Source: Myxococcales bacterium
GTDB lineage: Bacteria; Myxococcota_A; Polyangia; Polyangiales; Houyiibacteriaceae
Assembly (NCBI GenBank): GCA_019637115.1
Contig: JAHBWH010000015.1
Span: 1-64,000, forward strand
DNA length: 64,000 nt
Reading direction: 5' to 3'
In this document: piece after piece, positions 1 to 60,706 of the stretch
Position numbering within the stretch: position 1 is the first letter of the stretch
Layout of the letters: each line of letters opens with the position of its first letter
The notes under the pieces: generated by a model
Database searches by the model: none
What the model was told of the DNA's origin: nothing
The model's input: the letters and a program-made list of their open reading frames with translations, nothing else
Program-made: the position numbers and the translations under genes

Positions 1-768
1 ACCGCCGACCGCAAGGGCCTCTTCCGCGAGGCGCACGGCGGGACGCTCTTCATCGACGAGCTCGGCGAGCTGCCGATCGAGAGCCAGGCGAAGCTCCTGC
101 GGGCGATCGAGGTGCGGAAGATCCGCGCGGTCGGCGAAGGGCAGGAGGCTGACGTCGACGTGCGGATCGTCGCGGCCACGAACCGCGACCTCTGGGGCGA
201 GGTGCTCACGGGGCGCTTCCGCGAGGATCTCTACTTCCGTCTGCAGGTCTTCCCCGTGGTCCTCGCGCCCTTGCGTGAGCGCCGCGCGGACATCGCGCCT
301 CTGGCCGAGCACCTGCTCGGGAGGCTCGGGATGAGCCACGTACGAATCGACGAGTCCGCGCGCGTCGCCTTCGAGGGTTACGACTGGCCCGGCAACGTGC
401 GCGAGCTGCTCAACGTCCTGCGGCGCTCGGCGCTCTTCGCGCACGACGTGGGTGGGGCGGAGCCCGGAAAGGTCATCGACGGCGACCTCGCCCGGCGCAT
501 GATCGCCGCGAGCGTCTTCGGGCACGTCGGCCCGACGAGCGCGCGACGCGAGCCGCCCGGGCCCGCCGCTCCGCCCGCCGCGCCCGCCGCCGCGAGGCCG
601 ACGGATCCCGCGCTCACGACGAGCCTCGCCGAGGTCGAGCGCGCCCACATCGAGCGCGTGCTCGCGGCGCACGAGGGCAACATCACGAAGACGGCGATCG
701 CGCTCGGCATCGATCGGCGTACGCTCCAGCGCAAGCTCAAGGGCTACGGCTACGAGGAGAGCGGATGA
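1..768 (+). CDS. Sigma-54-dependent transcriptional activator, 3' part (5' end outside window)
   Basis: The reading frame is open from base 1, so the gene starts upstream of the window. The visible 255 residues begin inside the AAA+ domain: a Walker B region (GGTLFIDELGEL), the sensor I stretch VAATNRDL, then FREDLYFRL and the sensor II region WPGNVREL. A Pro/Ala-rich linker leads to a Fis-type helix-turn-helix ending RRTLQRKLKGYGYEESG. This is the NtrC-family layout, which activates RNA polymerase holding sigma-54 by hydrolysing ATP. Walker A and the GAFTGA loop lie outside, so the sensory domain is unknown. The stop TGA overlaps an ATG (ATGA) that begins the next reading frame. The last ~75 bp are duplicated at 2681-2757. 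Confidence 0.93.
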   Translation, partial: TADRKGLFREAHGGTLFIDELGELPIESQAKLLRAIEVRKIRAVGEGQEADVDVRIVAATNRDLWGEVLTGRFREDLYFRLQVFPVVLAPLRERRADIAPLAEHLLGRLGMSHVRIDESARVAFEGYDWPGNVRELLNVLRRSALFAHDVGGAEPGKVIDGDLARRMIAASVFGHVGPTSARREPPGPAAPPAAPAAARPTDPALTTSLAEVERAHIERVLAAHEGNITKTAIALGIDRRTLQRKLKGYGYEESG

Positions 769-52598: not shown

Positions 52599-53092
52599 AG
52601 GCCGTCCCCTCCTCCTCGAGCGTTTGGGTCTCGCTGAGCGTGCTGGCGCTCGTCGTCGTCACGGGCTGCAGCGCCGACGTGATCTCACCCGTCCCCGTCG
52701 CGCCCGACCGCTGCGCCTTCGAGGAGGAGGTCTACCCCATCCTCGCCCGCGACTGCGGCTTCCCCTACTGCCATGGCACCTCGGACCGGTTCTTCCAGGT
52801 CTGGGCGCCGGGGCGCGCGCGGCTCGACGCCGAGGCGACGGGCATCCTCGCGCCGCCGACCCGCGCGGAGCTCGAACGCAGCTATGATCGCGCGCGCTCG
52901 ATGCTGCGTGGCTACGACCCGGAGGGCACCCCCGACGACGCGCTGCTCCTGCGCAAGCCGCTCGAGGTCAGCGCGGGGGGCGCCGGTCACGCGGGCCGGG
53001 ACGCGCTCGGCCGGAACGTCTACGCCTCGCAGGAGGACCCACGGTGGCAGACGCTGCACCAATGGGCGCATGGAGAGCTCCGATGTCCGTGA
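52589..53092 (+). CDS. Lipoprotein with an atypical haem-like C-x4-CH motif
   Basis: 167 aa from the GTG at 52589 with GGAGGG upstream; it overlaps the DUF4266 stop by 10 bp. A signal ends VLALVVVTGCSA. The mature part begins RCAFEEEVYPILARDCGFPYCHG: the position of a cytochrome CxxCH motif is held by C-G-F-P-Y-C-H (C-x4-CH), which ordinary haem lyases would not recognise. WQTLHQWAHGEL closes it. It may bind haem in a special way or be a relative that has lost it. Confidence 0.75.
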   Translation: MQLKAVPSSSSVWVSLSVLALVVVTGCSADVISPVPVAPDRCAFEEEVYPILARDCGFPYCHGTSDRFFQVWAPGRARLDAEATGILAPPTRAELERSYDRARSMLRGYDPEGTPDDALLLRKPLEVSAGGAGHAGRDALGRNVYASQEDPRWQTLHQWAHGELRCP

Positions 53093-55416
53093 GCATCGTC
53101 GCTCGGCTGTTGGGGGTGGTCCTCTGCTTCGTCGGCGCGAGCGAGGCGCGGGCGTTCTCGTCGTCCACGCGCTTCGCCGCGCCCTTCAGCGGCGCCGAGA
53201 CTGGCGCGTGGGGCGGCGCCGGGGGCCGCTGGTTCACCGGCAGCCCCGGTGACGGCTACACGTGCGCGGTCTGCCACGGGGAGGAGCCTGCGCCGATCGA
53301 GATCTCCGGCATCCCCGAGCGCTTCGAGCCGGGCGCCACCTACACGATCGACGTCTCGTGGCCCGCGGAGGACATCGGCGCGTTCGTGCTCGAGCTGGTC
53401 GACGACGACGGACGCCCAGCCGGGAGCCTGAACGTGGTGGACGACGCCGAGGAGACGCGCTGCCCCACGGACGCTCCCGCGACGCAGGTCTGGCCGGTGG
53501 GCGAGCGCGAGGTCCTGCTGACGGAGGCTTGCGGCGCGCGGCGCACGCGGCTCGAGTGGACGGCGCCGACCACGGGCGTCGGCGCGCGCCTCTTCTTCGC
53601 GGGTGTGGTCGGCAACCGCAGCGGGGATCCCACTGGCGACGCGACGCGGGTCGAGAGCTGGGGCATCGCGCGGGTGGGCGCGCCCGCGGTCGAGGCGGGG
53701 AGCGTCGGCTGCGCCGCGGGGGGCCGGCCGGGGACGGCGCTGTGGTTGGTGGTCGGGCTCTTGGGGTGGCGGCGTCGGATCGTTTTTGGGGCCGGGTCTG
53801 GGTCTGGGTCCGGGTCTGGGTCCGGGTCTGGGTCTGGGTCTGGGTCGGCTTCCGGGTCCGGGTCCGTTTCCGGGTCCGTTTCCGGGTCGGTTTCCGGGTC
53901 CGTTTCCGGGTCCGTTTCCGGGTCCGGGTCCGGCTTTGGCTATTGCCTGGGTTTGGACGGCTCTGGGGACGTGCACGCGCACGCGCACGCGCACGCGCAC
54001 GTGGACGTGGACGTGCACGTGCACGCGCACGTGGACGCGCACGTGGACGCGCACGTGGACGTGGACGTGGACGTGGACGTGGACGTGGACGTGCACGTGG
54101 ACGTGGACGTGGACGTGGACGTGGACGTGGACGTGGACGTGGACGCGGACGTGGACGCGCGCGCGCACGTGGACGTGGACGCGCACGCGCACGTGGACGT
54201 GGACGTGGACGCGCACGCGCACGTGGACGTGGACGTGGACGTGGACGCGCACGTGGACGTGGACGTGGACGTGCACGCGCACGTGGACGTGGACGCGGAC
54301 GCTCGCGTCGGCGTGCGCTGCGGTCGCGCGCTCGCGGTCGTGCTTCTGGTCGGCGTTTGGCCGGGGGTCGTGCTTGCCGAGGACACGATCTCGGCGACGT
54401 TCTTCGTCCGTGCGGACACCGACCAGACGACCGTGGTCTCGCCCGAGCTTGCCGCGAGCCTCCGGGTCGGCGACCGGACGACCGTGCGGGCCGGGTACAC
54501 CGTCGACATCTGGACGAGCGCCTCGATCGACGTTCGAACCGCGGCGACGCGCGCCATCCGCGAGCAGCGCGACGAGATCAACGCGGGCGTCGCCCACGAG
54601 CTCGACGACGTGACGCTCGGCGTCGACTACCGCTTCAGCCACGAGCCCGACTACGTCGCGCACGGGGGCGGGCTCTTCGCGAGCTACCGCTTCGCGGACG
54701 GCAACGCGACGCTCTCCGCGCGCCTCGCCTTCGCGCAGGACATCGTGAGCCGCAGCGGCGACGACGCCTTCGAGCGCCGGCTCGGCACCTTCGGCGGCCT
54801 GCTGACCTTCACCCAGAACATCGACCCGCGGACGCTCGTCCAGCTCGCGTACGAGCTCGTGCGGCGCGAGGGTTATCAATCGAGCCCCTACCGCTTCGTC
54901 GGCATCGGCGCCGATGGGCGCTGCAACATGGCCGCCGCCCTCTGCGTCCCGGAGACGCACCCCACGCAGCGCACCCGCAACGCCTTCGTGCTCCGCGCGA
55001 AGCGCGCCTTCGGCGAGCATTGGAGCTTCGGCCTCGACTACCGCTTCTACATCGACGACTGGGCGCTCCGCGGCAACACCCTGCTCGGCACACTGGGTCT
55101 GATCCCCAAGGAGCGCTCGCTCGTGACGCTGCGCTACCGCTTCCACCACCAGACCGGCGCCAGCTTCTACTCGCCCGCGTATGGAGGAGACCTGAGCACC
55201 ATCCCTCGCTTCGTCACGCGCGACCGCGAGCTCTCGCCGCTCCACTCGCACCGCCTCGCGATCGCGTGGGAGCAGGGCATCGACCTCTCCGACGCGGGGC
55301 CCGAGCTGCGCATCACGCTCGCGCTCGGCGGCTCGACCTTCCGCTATTTCGACTTCGTCGGGCTCGAGCGCGTCTTCGCGCTCGACGTCACCCTCGCCGC
55401 CGTGGTGGTGCTCTGA
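53083..55416 (+). CDS. Haem-motif/MYXO-CTERM-like protein fused through repeats to a DUF3570 barrel
   Basis: 777 aa in one open frame from the ATG at 53083. Residues 1-~25 are a signal peptide. Residues ~26-210 have CAVCH (~57) and a Reeler-like beta domain (GATYTIDVSWPAEDIGAFVLEL), then a MYXO-CTERM-like tail: GCAAGG, a helix, and GWRRR at ~240. Instead of stopping, the frame crosses two tandem arrays giving (GS)n/(VS)n and (VD)n/(HA)n. From ~411 a second signal-like helix (ALAVVLLVGVWPGVVLA) leads into a complete DUF3570 barrel (TISATFFVRADTDQTTVVSPELA..., DYRFSHEPDYVAHGGGLFASY). A separate GTG start at 54313 is possible but has no ribosome site. Confidence 0.82.
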   Translation: MSVSIVARLLGVVLCFVGASEARAFSSSTRFAAPFSGAETGAWGGAGGRWFTGSPGDGYTCAVCHGEEPAPIEISGIPERFEPGATYTIDVSWPAEDIGAFVLELVDDDGRPAGSLNVVDDAEETRCPTDAPATQVWPVGEREVLLTEACGARRTRLEWTAPTTGVGARLFFAGVVGNRSGDPTGDATRVESWGIARVGAPAVEAGSVGCAAGGRPGTALWLVVGLLGWRRRIVFGAGSGSGSGSGSGSGSGSGSASGSGSVSGSVSGSVSGSVSGSVSGSGSGFGYCLGLDGSGDVHAHAHAHAHVDVDVHVHAHVDAHVDAHVDVDVDVDVDVDVHVDVDVDVDVDVDVDVDADVDARAHVDVDAHAHVDVDVDAHAHVDVDVDVDAHVDVDVDVHAHVDVDADARVGVRCGRALAVVLLVGVWPGVVLAEDTISATFFVRADTDQTTVVSPELAASLRVGDRTTVRAGYTVDIWTSASIDVRTAATRAIREQRDEINAGVAHELDDVTLGVDYRFSHEPDYVAHGGGLFASYRFADGNATLSARLAFAQDIVSRSGDDAFERRLGTFGGLLTFTQNIDPRTLVQLAYELVRREGYQSSPYRFVGIGADGRCNMAAALCVPETHPTQRTRNAFVLRAKRAFGEHWSFGLDYRFYIDDWALRGNTLLGTLGLIPKERSLVTLRYRFHHQTGASFYSPAYGGDLSTIPRFVTRDRELSPLHSHRLAIAWEQGIDLSDAGPELRITLALGGSTFRYFDFVGLERVFALDVTLAAVVVL
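53788..53936 (+). repeat. In-frame hexamer array (GGGTCT/GGGTCC, then TCCGTTTCCGGG)
   Basis: Codes for Gly-Ser and Val-Ser-Gly-Ser runs inside the 777-aa frame. It replaces the point where a MYXO-CTERM protein should end. Confidence 0.95.
53970..54301 (+). repeat. In-frame hexamer array (GTGGAC with GCGCAC)
   Basis: About 55 hexamers, coding for Val-Asp and His-Ala dipeptides. It is the longest array in the window. Because units are six bases, changes in copy number keep the downstream frame. Confidence 0.95.
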
Positions 55417-56914: not shown

Positions 56915-57057
56915 GAGGGGCTGTCGCCAGGTCGCCAGCCCCTCCCCCACGGGGCATGAAGCCCCGCGGGGCCCCCTCCCACGAGCCTACGCTCGCTGCG
57001 CTCGCTGCGCGCCGTCCGGTAGGGCGGCTTGCGATAACGGCTGAGCTTCTTCTCAGC
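56915..57057. terminator. Cluster of hairpins between convergent operons
   Basis: GAGGGGCTG (56915) pairs with CAGCCCCTC (56936); CGGGGC with GCCCCG (56950/56961); GCTGAG with CTCAGC (57040/57052). They probably end transcription from both sides. No gene lies in 56895-57052. Confidence 0.65.
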
Positions 57058-58846
57058 TCGCGGCGAGCCCCAAGACGGATCGCGCGAGCGCGCGCGCGTC
57101 CTCGCGGAGCAGCGGCAGCGCGTCGCCGTAGTCGGCTTGGCGGTCGACGCGGTACTCGCCGGGAGGCGCGAGGTCGGGGACCCAGCACGTGTGCAGCGAG
57201 AACCCGACGTCGAGCTGCGGGTGCCGCAGCCGCGCGAGCGGGCCGCGGCTCAGATCACCCGCGTCGAGGATCCAGAGCTCGTCGCCCTCGGGCCCGAGCA
57301 TGATCGTGACGAGGTAGCCTTCGCCCGGTCCGCCGTTCCGACGTGGCGCGAAGGTCGGTGACATCGGGAGCCAGCCGAAGGGCAGCTCGAGCGCGTCGAG
57401 GATCGCGAGCGAGGAGTGGTCTACCCGGAGAAACTGTCCGGGGAGCGCGACCTGCGGGAGCTCGTCGAGCGGCAAGATGCGGCTCGCTTGGTCGCGGTAG
57501 ACATCGGTGATGCGGGTCGTGAGCAGCTCGGGGTCGTAGCCGAGCGTGACCCAGTGGGACTGCCCGAGCGGTCGCGCCGGGTCGCGCTCGTCTCGCGACC
57601 AGAGCGTGACGCCGAAGAGCCGCTCGTCGTCGAGGAGCTGGCTCTCGAGCACCGCGCCCGTGCGAGCGTCGACGACGTAGCGACCATGGGGCGTGATGTC
57701 GGCGGGCATCACCATCATGCCGACGTTGCGCGGATCGACGGTCGCGCCCGAGTGGTGGACGACGTCGTGCGCGCGGATCCACTCGCTCGGATCGGCCGAG
57801 TTCTGGTGCATCAGCGCGACGACGAGGCGGTCCCCCGCGTCCCCCCGCTCGACGAGGAAGTGCGCGCTCTCGTAGGGGATCTCGACGCGCGTCGCGGTCG
57901 CCGTCGCGCCGCCCAACGACGCCTTGGGCACGACCCAGAGCACCGTCGTCGGACGCTGCGCCCGCGTGACGTCGCCGCCCGCCATCTGCTCCGCCTCGAC
58001 CATGAACGCGCCGTCGTTGAGGATGAGGTAGCGATCGGTCGTCTGGATCTGGTGGAGCGACTGCTCGATGATCACGGGCGCGCCGCTCGCGTCGATCAGC
58101 TCGGTGACCACGGGCTCGGTGCGTCCGTCCCAGACGAGCACGCGGGCGAAGGGCTCGAGCGACAGCCCGTCGATCGGCGCGGCCCAGTTCACGGTGTAGA
58201 CGCGGTCGTCGATCGGATCCCAGACCGGGTGCGCCGACGACATGTGCACCGGCAAGAGCGCGAGACCGGGCACGATGCCCTCGAGCATCGGACGCCAGGT
58301 CGAGAGCTGCCCGACGGGCGACACGACGTCGAGCGTCTCGGGGTCGATCTCCCACGGCCGCCCTGCGTCGTAGGTCGCGAGGATGCGACCGCTCGGCGAG
58401 GGCACGAGCGCAGTGTTCGCGAAGTTCCGCGCGCCGAGCTGCGGCGACATGCGCAGCTGGCCGTTGCTCCGAAACGCGAGGTCGCCCGTGGCGACCTCGT
58501 CGAGGCGAAAGCAGTCGGTGCGCAAGAGCTTGGTCTTCGCCCGGGCGCGGCCGCCCTCGAAGCGAAAGCGCATGACCATTCCGTCCCCCGTGAAGAGCGG
58601 GGTGCCGTCGCCATAGGGGACGCCGCCGACCACGAAGACGAAGCCGAGGATGTCGCTGGGCACACGACCGGCGACGAGCTCGAGCTCCTCATCGTCGATC
58701 TCGGCCCGCGTGCCGTGGAGGATGGAGTCGTGCGCGGGGCCGTCCGGCGGGAGGATGTCGACCCACGGGTCGTCCGAGCCGCATCCGATGAGCCCCCCAG
58801 CCCCCGTGAGGGCCGAGAAGCGAAGCCAATCTCGTCGTGTGAGCAC
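57053..58846 (-). CDS. Exported carotenoid oxygenase-family protein
   Basis: 597 aa from the GTG at 58846 (a TTG at 58873 and a GTG at 58855 are alternatives). The start reads LTRRDWLRFSALTGAGGLIGCG: a twin-arginine-like motif and a lipobox, so it is exported and lipid-anchored. The seven-bladed propeller shows FTGDGMVMRFRFEGG, four iron-ligand His candidates (SSAHPVWDP; SLHQIQTTDRYLILND; ESAHFLVE; GFSLHTCWVPDL), and a C-terminal dyad-like end. Relatives cleave carotenoids or related alkenes with O2. Most are cytosolic; export is unusual. Confidence 0.85.
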   Translation of the reverse strand: MLTRRDWLRFSALTGAGGLIGCGSDDPWVDILPPDGPAHDSILHGTRAEIDDEELELVAGRVPSDILGFVFVVGGVPYGDGTPLFTGDGMVMRFRFEGGRARAKTKLLRTDCFRLDEVATGDLAFRSNGQLRMSPQLGARNFANTALVPSPSGRILATYDAGRPWEIDPETLDVVSPVGQLSTWRPMLEGIVPGLALLPVHMSSAHPVWDPIDDRVYTVNWAAPIDGLSLEPFARVLVWDGRTEPVVTELIDASGAPVIIEQSLHQIQTTDRYLILNDGAFMVEAEQMAGGDVTRAQRPTTVLWVVPKASLGGATATATRVEIPYESAHFLVERGDAGDRLVVALMHQNSADPSEWIRAHDVVHHSGATVDPRNVGMMVMPADITPHGRYVVDARTGAVLESQLLDDERLFGVTLWSRDERDPARPLGQSHWVTLGYDPELLTTRITDVYRDQASRILPLDELPQVALPGQFLRVDHSSLAILDALELPFGWLPMSPTFAPRRNGGPGEGYLVTIMLGPEGDELWILDAGDLSRGPLARLRHPQLDVGFSLHTCWVPDLAPPGEYRVDRQADYGDALPLLREDARALARSVLGLAAS

Positions 58847-59009
58847 GACGAGCACCCTACCCGGGACACGCAAAAAGTCGACAGTAGAACTTCCAACAAC
58901 CTGCGTCTACTCACGGTCGCCGCGTTTCAGACGTCCCCTCGTCCGGCCACGCAGTGGCCGACGCCGAGTCATCCAGAGCGCGACCGACCTCAGGGGCTCG
59001 CCGGACGAG

Positions 59010-59030
59010 GAGCTGTACTCAGTACAGCTC
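59010..59030. promoter_or_regulatory. 21-bp perfect palindrome
   Basis: Arms GAGCTGTACT and AGTACAGCTC about a central C. It coincides with the left end of the long inverted repeat that follows. A dimeric regulator could bind it. About 165 bp upstream of the carotenoid-oxygenase start. Confidence 0.45.
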
Positions 59031-59180
59031 CCCGGGAGTTCGTGACCAGGTGCGGCAGATCCATCCCGTCCAGCGGCGTTGCTCCTCAGTCACGGGCCAA
59101 CAGCCCGTTCCCTCGTCGCGCCTTGCTGGACGGGCGCCTCTTTGCACCTGGTCACGAACTTCCGGTTCGCTGTACTCAGT
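59018..59180. repeat. Nested long inverted repeat (~163 bp)
   Basis: Outer arms 59018-59052 and 59145-59180 match at about 30 of 36 positions, with AGTTCGTGACCAGGTG perfect. Inside, CCCGTCCAGC (59065) pairs with GCTGGACGGG (59125), and ACGGGC (59092) with GCCCGT (59103). All stems are co-nested, so the strand could fold as one long hairpin. The right end covers the stop codon of the next gene. It could be a small mobile element (MITE) or a structured RNA. Confidence 0.8.
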
Positions 59181-59613
59181 GCCAGTAGACGACTTCGTGC
59201 AAGAGCGCGACGAGCAGGGTCGACTCGCCCACGAGCGGCGCGGCGTCGAGCGCCGCCTCGGCCTCCGCGAGCGAGAGGAAACCGAAGGCGCCCGCGCGAT
59301 CATTCGAGCGCAGGTGGACCGCCCCGCGCAGCCCGAGGATCACGTAGCCCGCCGCGCGCCGGGGGAGCTCGCTGGGCGGCGCGACGTTCGCTCGTGAGGT
59401 CCGGCTCCGAACGCGGAGCAAGAAGCGCTCGAGCAGCCAGAGGTCGGTCTGGCCTGGCGGGAAGATCCGCTCGAGGGCCGCGAGGTCGTCGGGCAGCGTC
59501 GGCGCGAGCCCGCTGCACGCGCCATCGCGCGTGCGCCGCACGAAGAAGCGTGCGTCACTCGGCCCGAACGGGTGAGCGGCGCCGGGCGGCCAGTCGACGA
59601 CCGTGACGCTCAC
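59176..59613 (-). CDS. Hypothetical protein
   Basis: 145 aa from a GTG at 59613, with stop TGA inside the long inverted repeat. Seen: WPPGAAHPFGPSDARFFVRR, LWLLERFLLRVRSR, VILGLRGAVHLRSNDR and LLVALLHEVVYWH. No signal peptide or membrane helix. No family recognised. It lies 25 bp from the epimerase stop on the same strand. Confidence 0.6.
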   Translation of the reverse strand: MSVTVVDWPPGAAHPFGPSDARFFVRRTRDGACSGLAPTLPDDLAALERIFPPGQTDLWLLERFLLRVRSRTSRANVAPPSELPRRAAGYVILGLRGAVHLRSNDRAGAFGFLSLAEAEAALDAAPLVGESTLLVALLHEVVYWH

Positions 59614-59638
59614 GCGCTGCCGCCAAGCGCCGCGGACG

Positions 59639-60565
59639 TCACTGGCTCGCGAACCATGCGGCCGTCTTCGCGATGCCCTCGTCGAAGGATGTCCACTCGC
59701 CGAAGACGGTGGCCGGCTCGAGCACCGAGCGCTCGAGGTCGCCCGCGCGGCGCGGGCCGAAGCCGATCTCGGGCCCCTCGACGCCGAGCGAGCGCGCGAG
59801 CGCCTCGGCGACCTGACGCGTCGTGGTCGCGCTCCCGGTCGCGACGTTGAAGGTGCCCTCGACCTCGCCCGTCAGCGCGGCGAGGTTCGCGCGCACGACG
59901 TCGCCGACGTAGACGTAGTCGCGGACGCAGCCGTCGTCACCGACCTCTTGCTTCGCGTTGATCTGGATGGGCTGCCCAGCGCGCAGGCGCTGCGCGAAGA
60001 TCGCGACGACGCCCGCCTCGCCGTGCGGGTCCTGGCGCGGCCCGTAGACGTTGGCGTAGCGGAGCACGCTCGAGCGCAGGCCGTGCTCGTTGCGGTAGAA
60101 GTCGAGGTAACGCTCGACCGAGAGCTTGGCGCAGGCGTAGGGGCTGAGCGGGCGCTCGGCCCAGCCGACCTCGGCGCGCTTCGGCTCGACGACCTCGCCG
60201 TAGATGGCGCCGCCGGTCGACGCGAAGACCACCCGGCCGACGCCATGCTTCACGCAGGCCTCGAGCAGGTGGATGCTGCCGATGACGTTGGCCTCCGCGT
60301 CTCGGATGGGCTCGCGGACGCTCACCGCGACGCTGGTCTGCGCGCCCTGGTGACAGACCGCTTCGGGGCGGAAGTCCGCCACGACCCGCTCGACCGCCGC
60401 GCCGTCGCGGAGGTCGACGACCTCGAGCTTCGCGCGCGCGTCGACGTTCTCCTTCCGGCCGGTCGAGAGGTCGTCGAGCACCCGCACCTCGTGGCCCGCC
60501 GCGAGCAAGGCGTCGACCACGTGACTTCCGATGAAACCGGCGCCGCCGGTGACGAGGATCCGCAT
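59639..60565 (-). CDS. NAD-dependent nucleotide-sugar epimerase (UDP-glucose 4-epimerase type)
   Basis: 308 aa from the ATG at 60565. Extended-SDR features: GGAGFIGSHVVDALLAAGH (NAD loop), LDDLSTGRKENV, STGGAIYG, and the catalytic Y-x3-K in SPYACAKLSVERYL. Also RYANVYGPRQDPHGEAG. The closest groups are GalE-like UDP-glucose/UDP-N-acetylglucosamine 4-epimerases, but the sugar cannot be fixed. Together with the rml genes upstream it suggests O-antigen or exopolysaccharide precursor supply. Confidence 0.9.
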   Translation of the reverse strand: MRILVTGGAGFIGSHVVDALLAAGHEVRVLDDLSTGRKENVDARAKLEVVDLRDGAAVERVVADFRPEAVCHQGAQTSVAVSVREPIRDAEANVIGSIHLLEACVKHGVGRVVFASTGGAIYGEVVEPKRAEVGWAERPLSPYACAKLSVERYLDFYRNEHGLRSSVLRYANVYGPRQDPHGEAGVVAIFAQRLRAGQPIQINAKQEVGDDGCVRDYVYVGDVVRANLAALTGEVEGTFNVATGSATTTRQVAEALARSLGVEGPEIGFGPRRAGDLERSVLEPATVFGEWTSFDEGIAKTAAWFASQ

Positions 60566-60706
60566 GGAGCGGACATACCTCAACCCAAGCGCGAATGCGA
60601 CGCCTTCGGAGCAGGTCCCCTCGGCGGCTGGTGACCTGGTGGCTGGCGCGCGTAGCCACCGCGGGTGGGCGAGCTCGACGGTGAGCGTCAGGCCCTGGCC
60701 GGGCGG

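Follow-up and report, generated by a model that had tools for sequence, protein, structure and literature searches.

Why does one of the strongest hairpins in the window, the 64,000-nt stretch of DNA analysed here, end exactly where a gene ends? A minus-strand open reading frame of 145 aa without a Pfam match (59176-59613) terminates inside the right end of a nested inverted repeat, and the first-pass annotation had offered two readings of that repeat, a MITE or an RNA lying between two genes on the same strand. The fold itself is real. The region 58990-59200 folds at -117.1 kcal/mol, compared with -80.8 +/- 4.6 kcal/mol for 200 dinucleotide shuffles, none of which was as good (z = -7.95). Two arms of 37 nt (59017-59053 and 59144-59180), 86% complementary and 90 nt apart, enclose the middle and inner stems that had been noticed, a 10-bp stem pairing 59065-59074 with 59125-59134 and a 6-bp stem pairing 59092-59097 with 59103-59108. 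The palindrome that had been counted as a further part of the structure (given as 21 bp) does not belong to the element proper. Its 14-nt halves (59006-59019 and 59021-59034, 93%) form a junction in which a flanking AGCTGTA (59011-59017 as read on the plus strand, annotated on the minus strand) mirrors the element's left end. The junction recurs in one other copy (L020), and the flanking heptamer is probably the leftover end of another copy.

Copies, target duplication and the neighbouring stop codon

A similarity search of the 8.88-Mb assembly (G000, 434 contigs) with the element returned 69 matching pieces at 40 separate places, the window copy included; the remaining 29 pieces are opposite-strand matches to arms of these copies. 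The copies lie on both strands, and most are near 162 bp and 85-97% identical. Alignment of the other 39, with their flanks, to the window copy gives common boundaries, which place the whole element with both target copies at 59018-59179 (162 bp, plus strand). It consists of a left target copy CTCAG (59018-59022), a left terminal inverted repeat arm beginning TACAGCTCCCC (59023-59053, plus strand), a right arm beginning TACAGCGAACC on the minus strand (59144-59174) and a right target copy CTCAG (59175-59179). Both ends are present in 27 of the aligned copies, and 20 of these have CTNAG at each end. The N pairs in the 20 are 13 G/G, 5 C/C, 1 A/A and 1 C/G, so that 19 of 20 agree when read in direct orientation (100,000 permutations, p = 1e-5); the remaining seven depart from CTNAG at one or both ends, and N agrees in five of them. 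Pairing between the ends would predict complementary N, whereas the agreement is direct, and thus the target is duplicated, over a length of 3 to 5 bp (TNA to CTNAG). The element is short, multicopy, dispersed and without coding capacity, and its terminal inverted repeats are conserved in the aligned copies. It is a MITE, a non-autonomous DNA transposon, as one of the two original readings held, and with some 40 copies and an inner core kept in many bacterial groups it is neither single nor unconserved. Plasmid records held no match for the window element.

The stop codon was correctly placed at the right end of the structure: it is the TGA at 59178-59176, within the right CTCAG. Because this TGA is inside the duplicated target, the stop should predate the insertion. 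We therefore think that the insertion most likely re-made an existing stop and did not supply a new one, as had been suggested. No empty site for the window copy was found; the oxygenase gene is retained in two genomes (G001 and G006), but the 145-aa gene was not found in the stretches examined from them. This oxygenase, of the RPE65 carotenoid type (57053-58855, minus strand), adjoins the element, and an epimerase lies at 59639-60583. Farther away, at 53044-55416, the window contains a long frame with a run of Val-Asp/His dipeptides, a low-complexity repeat that is open on both strands.

Could the element recognize translation stop codons as such? At first sight the copies point that way. On 29 sides the target copy can be read as a stop, and in 23 of these the frame with the strongest third-position GC signal terminates precisely at it, as it does in all 15 of the strong ones; on the 35 sides that do not read as a stop, the frames are spread 12/7/16, as by chance. 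The available sites argue otherwise. When a simple codon-based gene caller was applied to the fetched stretches, they contained 169 CTNAG sites that are not interior to a gene, 80 of them in-frame stops; of the two-ended elements, 13 of 27 lie on called stops (p = 0.54), so there is no enrichment. In a GC-rich genome, the target sequence together with the loss of harmful insertions accounts for the abutment of stop codons, and we regard targeting of stops as such as highly improbable.

A conserved core that folds on one strand

The inner 72 nt of the element (59064-59135, minus strand) recurs in hairpin elements with unrelated ends. A similarity search of 57 genomes gave matches in eight, its own genome included, and in the more distant families (G014, G034, G041, G043, G048 and G055) it is mainly the inner part that matches, within differently armed hairpins. 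A loose pattern, GCGTTGC-22..50-GCGCCTTGC, matched 133 of 192 genomes of the class, several with 15-31 matches, compared with mostly 0-2 in reversed controls; some of the single matches to this pattern are ordinary coding sequence, and single matches do not count as evidence. A tighter pattern, applied to species-representative genomes, returned at least 115 stretches. The isolates among them include Massilia, Ottowia, Variovorax, Denitromonas, Ramlibacter, Herbaspirillum, Sphingomonas and Alloalcanivorax, and the core-bearing MAGs are labelled, with labels that can be wrong, as Acidobacteria, Verrucomicrobiota, Elusimicrobia, Omnitrophota, Nitrospinota, Planctomycetota, Deltaproteobacteria/Myxococcota and Chitinophagales. 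The core thus recurs in Myxococcota, Acidobacteria, Proteobacteria, Verrucomicrobia, Elusimicrobia and others. One viral-labelled contig carries two copies of it (L144 and L145), and phage records gave no match for the Ottowia element.

Pairing in the core is maintained by double changes. We aligned 68 non-redundant cores (from 95), read on the minus strand, as set A1. A structure of 23 pairs has 84.9% of its cells paired, compared with 63.3% after shuffling and at most 39.8% when slid, and a covariation score of 0.517, compared with 0.166 +/- 0.010 shuffled and at most 0.133 slid. The single pair between two GA mismatch motifs is GC in 35 of the 68 cores, CG in 30, AU in one, UG in one and unpaired in one. 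Since the tighter pattern had fixed the motif letters, their invariance in A1 is circular; a covariance model, R1, was therefore built and conservation re-examined on its hits. In the window R1 finds this element alone, at 81.2 bits (E 8.7e-22), with the next match at 18.3 bits, and in 282 genomes of the phylum it matches at E <= 1e-4 in 82 (about 17 candidates scored per genome). The hits used (n = 39, 37 distinct), a set that leans towards the model and overlaps A1 in a few loci, show 90.8% pairing and a covariation score of 0.691, compared with 0.165 shuffled and at most 0.095 slid.

These pairs surround conserved loops and mismatches. An AAG loop (59122-59124, minus strand) is kept in 39 of 39 hits, and an AAC loop (59078-59080, minus strand) in 38 of 39, the one departure being in its first A. 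Between the loops, a GA-N-GA mismatch motif has its 5' side at 59113-59117 and its 3' side at 59083-59087 (both minus strand); the middle bases of the two sides pair and covary, and the GA letters are kept in 34-39 of the 39 hits. The motif is absent in the elements of G041 and partial in G055.

Isolated mismatches in otherwise paired arms indicate which strand folds. Counted on the plus strand of 68 elements, there are 120 A-C and 37 G-T mismatches (p = 2e-11); by element, 49 favor A-C and 13 favor G-T, with 6 ties (p = 4.8e-6). The same polarity appears in 27 model hits chosen as new (46 A-C and 14 G-T; 19:2 by element, with 6 ties). The apical stem, with 1 versus 2 mismatch cells, has too few for a strand reading. 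Because an A-C mismatch on the plus strand is a G-U or G-T on the minus strand, it is the minus strand that folds, which is compatible with RNA or single-stranded DNA alike. The core therefore behaves as a strand-specific folded domain, and in the window the strand that folds is also the one that codes for the neighboring gene.

The core does not correspond to a catalogued RNA. No Rfam family matched at the cores in 13 loci, and at the window element Rfam 15 gave no match at gathering score, the only hit being a chance-like MIR918 at 27 bits (gathering score 268). Near a core in an Elusimicrobia MAG (L168, 4109-4180, minus strand) there is a match to the 2dG-II purine riboswitch. Among 3129 open reading frames near cores, there was no recurrent neighbor gene besides frames internal to the elements and one broad cluster. 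We found no description of the core in the literature searched, where 19 papers contain a string of the core and none of these looked relevant; most subscription papers were outside our reach, and we do not claim that it is absent from print. The interest of this MITE lies in its inner domain, which covaries, is strand-specific, is common to mobile hairpins with unrelated ends and is not in Rfam; what the domain may do is considered below.

Readings of the conserved core

We consider it likely that the element is a non-autonomous MITE, mobilized in trans by a DDE transposase into CTNAG, and that its inner folded domain is selected for a step common to its carriers. A transposase supplied in trans would recognize the terminal inverted repeats, and insertion into CTNAG would duplicate the target, such that a stop codon used as target would be re-made and the gene would survive. 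The inner hairpin domain of about 72 nt would fold on the minus strand, presenting its AAG and AAC loops and the GA mismatch pairs that stand between covarying base pairs. Elements of many phyla whose ends are unrelated have this domain in common, and selection therefore probably acts on it through a step that all of them share. Most likely, the transposase or a host factor would recognize the single strand in its folded form, and the strand recognized could be DNA, during replication or transposition, or RNA. A more specific form of this proposal, that the core is a portable folded module of single-stranded DNA or RNA, present in at least nine phyla by label and read by a shared protein through its loops and GA mismatches, is one that we put forward only tentatively. 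If true, the portable core would be either a new principle by which bacterial MITEs are recognized or a new class of structured RNAs carried by transposons.

One observation weighs against selection of the fold: the symmetry of the arms can arise from template switching too. Hairpin repair is well known, and in subfamilies A and B both arms change together. An ordinary MITE with copies, ends and a target duplication like those described above might then carry a functionless core, kept by common descent and horizontal spread while template switching holds the arms in register. We think this unlikely, since mismatches in the core persist where copying of one arm from the other would erase them, pairs next to them change on both sides, two sets show the polarity of the folded strand, and the loops stay while the arms diverge beyond recognition. 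Arm-copying repair by itself cannot explain the conserved mismatches or the strand polarity. Somewhat less probable again is that the core is a transcribed structured RNA, a stabilizer or processing site in 3' UTRs that acts on neighboring genes and has spread as MITE cargo. The wobbles of G-U type on the folding minus strand would suit such an RNA, as would the frequent abutment of gene ends and, in the window, the position of the folding strand downstream of the 145-aa gene on the same strand. However, the copies that abut stops are mixed in orientation, the plus strand running parallel to the gene in 11 of 16 and opposite in 5 of 16, and most messages would therefore carry the strand that does not fold. 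In addition, no promoter-like site was found at the element, no intrinsic terminator (a GC stem followed by a T run) occurs within 58700-59700, and the Rfam search described above gave no family.

REP and REPIN sequences are high-copy extragenic hairpins with conserved mismatches that are thought to be mobilized in trans by RAYT, and the window family is likewise a high-copy extragenic hairpin with conserved mismatches. REP elements are palindromes of 20-40 bp with a GTAG or CGTC tag at their base (PMC3733652). The present element has no such tag (its ends are CTNAG-TACAG), is far longer at 162 bp and has a target duplication, and the RAYT domain PF01797 (Y1_Tnp) had no match in five core-rich genomes (G000, G046, G097, G073 and G059). 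Mobilization as a REP or REPIN by a Y1 transposase is thus largely refuted, and its probability seems to us close to negligible. The preferred reading remains a MITE mobilized by a DDE transposase, with an inner domain under selection.

Bacterial MITEs are usually viewed as deletion leftovers, with unimportant interiors and with families confined to close relatives. The Correia/NEMIS, RUP and ERIC elements are MITEs of 100-200 bp with terminal inverted repeats, a target duplication and a long stem-loop, lie near genes and are described per genus or family (PMC2229807). The window element resembles them in size, inverted repeats, target duplication, stem-loop and proximity to genes, and differs from them in an inner domain that is common across phyla while the ends differ, that covaries and that has strand polarity. 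A covarying, strand-specific domain that is kept across phyla while the ends change suggests that the interior of a MITE can be the selected part. A covariance model of the core would permit annotation of many unrecognized elements, and the core makes the old question of how such elements are mobilized testable in culturable hosts (Massilia, Ottowia, Variovorax and Sphingomonas).

Element ends and candidate transposases

The ends vary among the families that carry the core. Other core-bearing families have CTAG-like end motifs with different arms. In three genomes (G073, G372 and G395) the two target copies match partly or poorly, which suggests that the length of the duplication, and perhaps the transposase, differ between families. 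In Burkholderiales and neighbors, 16 elements, 233-249 bp long, are bounded by CCTAGAAACGGCAGTTG (with at most 4 substitutions), and their 5-bp flanking repeats are mostly nTNAn (8 exact, 6 at 4/5 and 2 at 3/5). A Polaromonas plasmid carries such an element about 360 bp away from an insertion sequence that has a TTTAA/TTTAA duplication, whose left end differs from that of the element in 1 of 17 bases and whose right end differs in a 4-bp stretch. The 510-aa transposase of this insertion sequence matches PF13701; its nearest family is IS1380 (E = 1.6e-45), at 155.5 bits, which is below the cut-off of 180, and tblastn linked it to transposases annotated as IS1380 and ISEcp1. Comparison on this one plasmid shows that the Burkholderiales elements and an IS1380-like insertion sequence have terminal repeats in common. 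A Methylibium plasmid carries a truncated relative of this transposase.

An IS1380-like enzyme might also mobilize the window family, although the direct link is with the Burkholderiales elements only. The CTNAG of the window family fits nTNAn, but no IS1380 with that family's ends was found among the insertion sequences examined. A true IS1380 (277 bits), bounded by CTAG, is present in one core-rich genome (G034), and its repeats are unlike the MITE arms of that genome. None of the IS1380-like elements examined was found to contain the core. As a known system, the IS1380 family (ISEcp1 and relatives, with their non-autonomous derivatives) is close in that an IS1380-like insertion sequence has the ends and a 5-bp nTNAn duplication in common with the Burkholderiales elements; it differs in that the ends of the window family match no insertion sequence found.

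Other transposase families were considered as partners. IS5-family MITEs use TNA or CTAG targets, and a TNA lies within CTNAG; a TNA target alone is not decisive. PF13586, searched in nine genomes as the mark of an IS5/IS427 partner, had no match in the element's own genome, and that candidate was rejected. PF01797 and PF01609 are each absent from some core-rich genomes and were rejected as obligate partners; the PF01609 matches in the element's own genome belong to two IS4 and one IS701 with other ends. We saw no transposase with the element's ends in that genome, a weak absence in an assembly of 434 contigs.

The ends themselves are abundant there, a terminal-repeat pattern giving 83 matches compared with none for its reversed control. 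A search of this genome and 20 fetched stretches for an autonomous insertion sequence with the same ends found solo ends and mini-palindromes only, and in four Massilia genomes there was no end pair of insertion-sequence length among the matches listed. In six genomes of one family the end spacings among the matches listed are about 165, 95 and 43 bp, with single pairs at 333 and 426 bp. The mini-palindromes are 35-43 bp, are made of the two terminal tips alone (for example, L078 2463-2497 and L084 2559-2593), are many in G157 and look as if the interior of the hairpin had been lost. A related but distinct end motif, CNTAGTACACCCGCCCGGAAGTTC, occurs in the element's own genome (C17, C24:21015, C201:40069, C368:2595 and C381:21943) and perhaps marks a sister family. 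The same genome has a second dispersed repeat (for example, L406-L435), with about 44 matching places and a fixed end, GGAAGCTGA. In at least five copies the MITE begins exactly at this GGAAGCTGA end, and other copies carry its first bases only.
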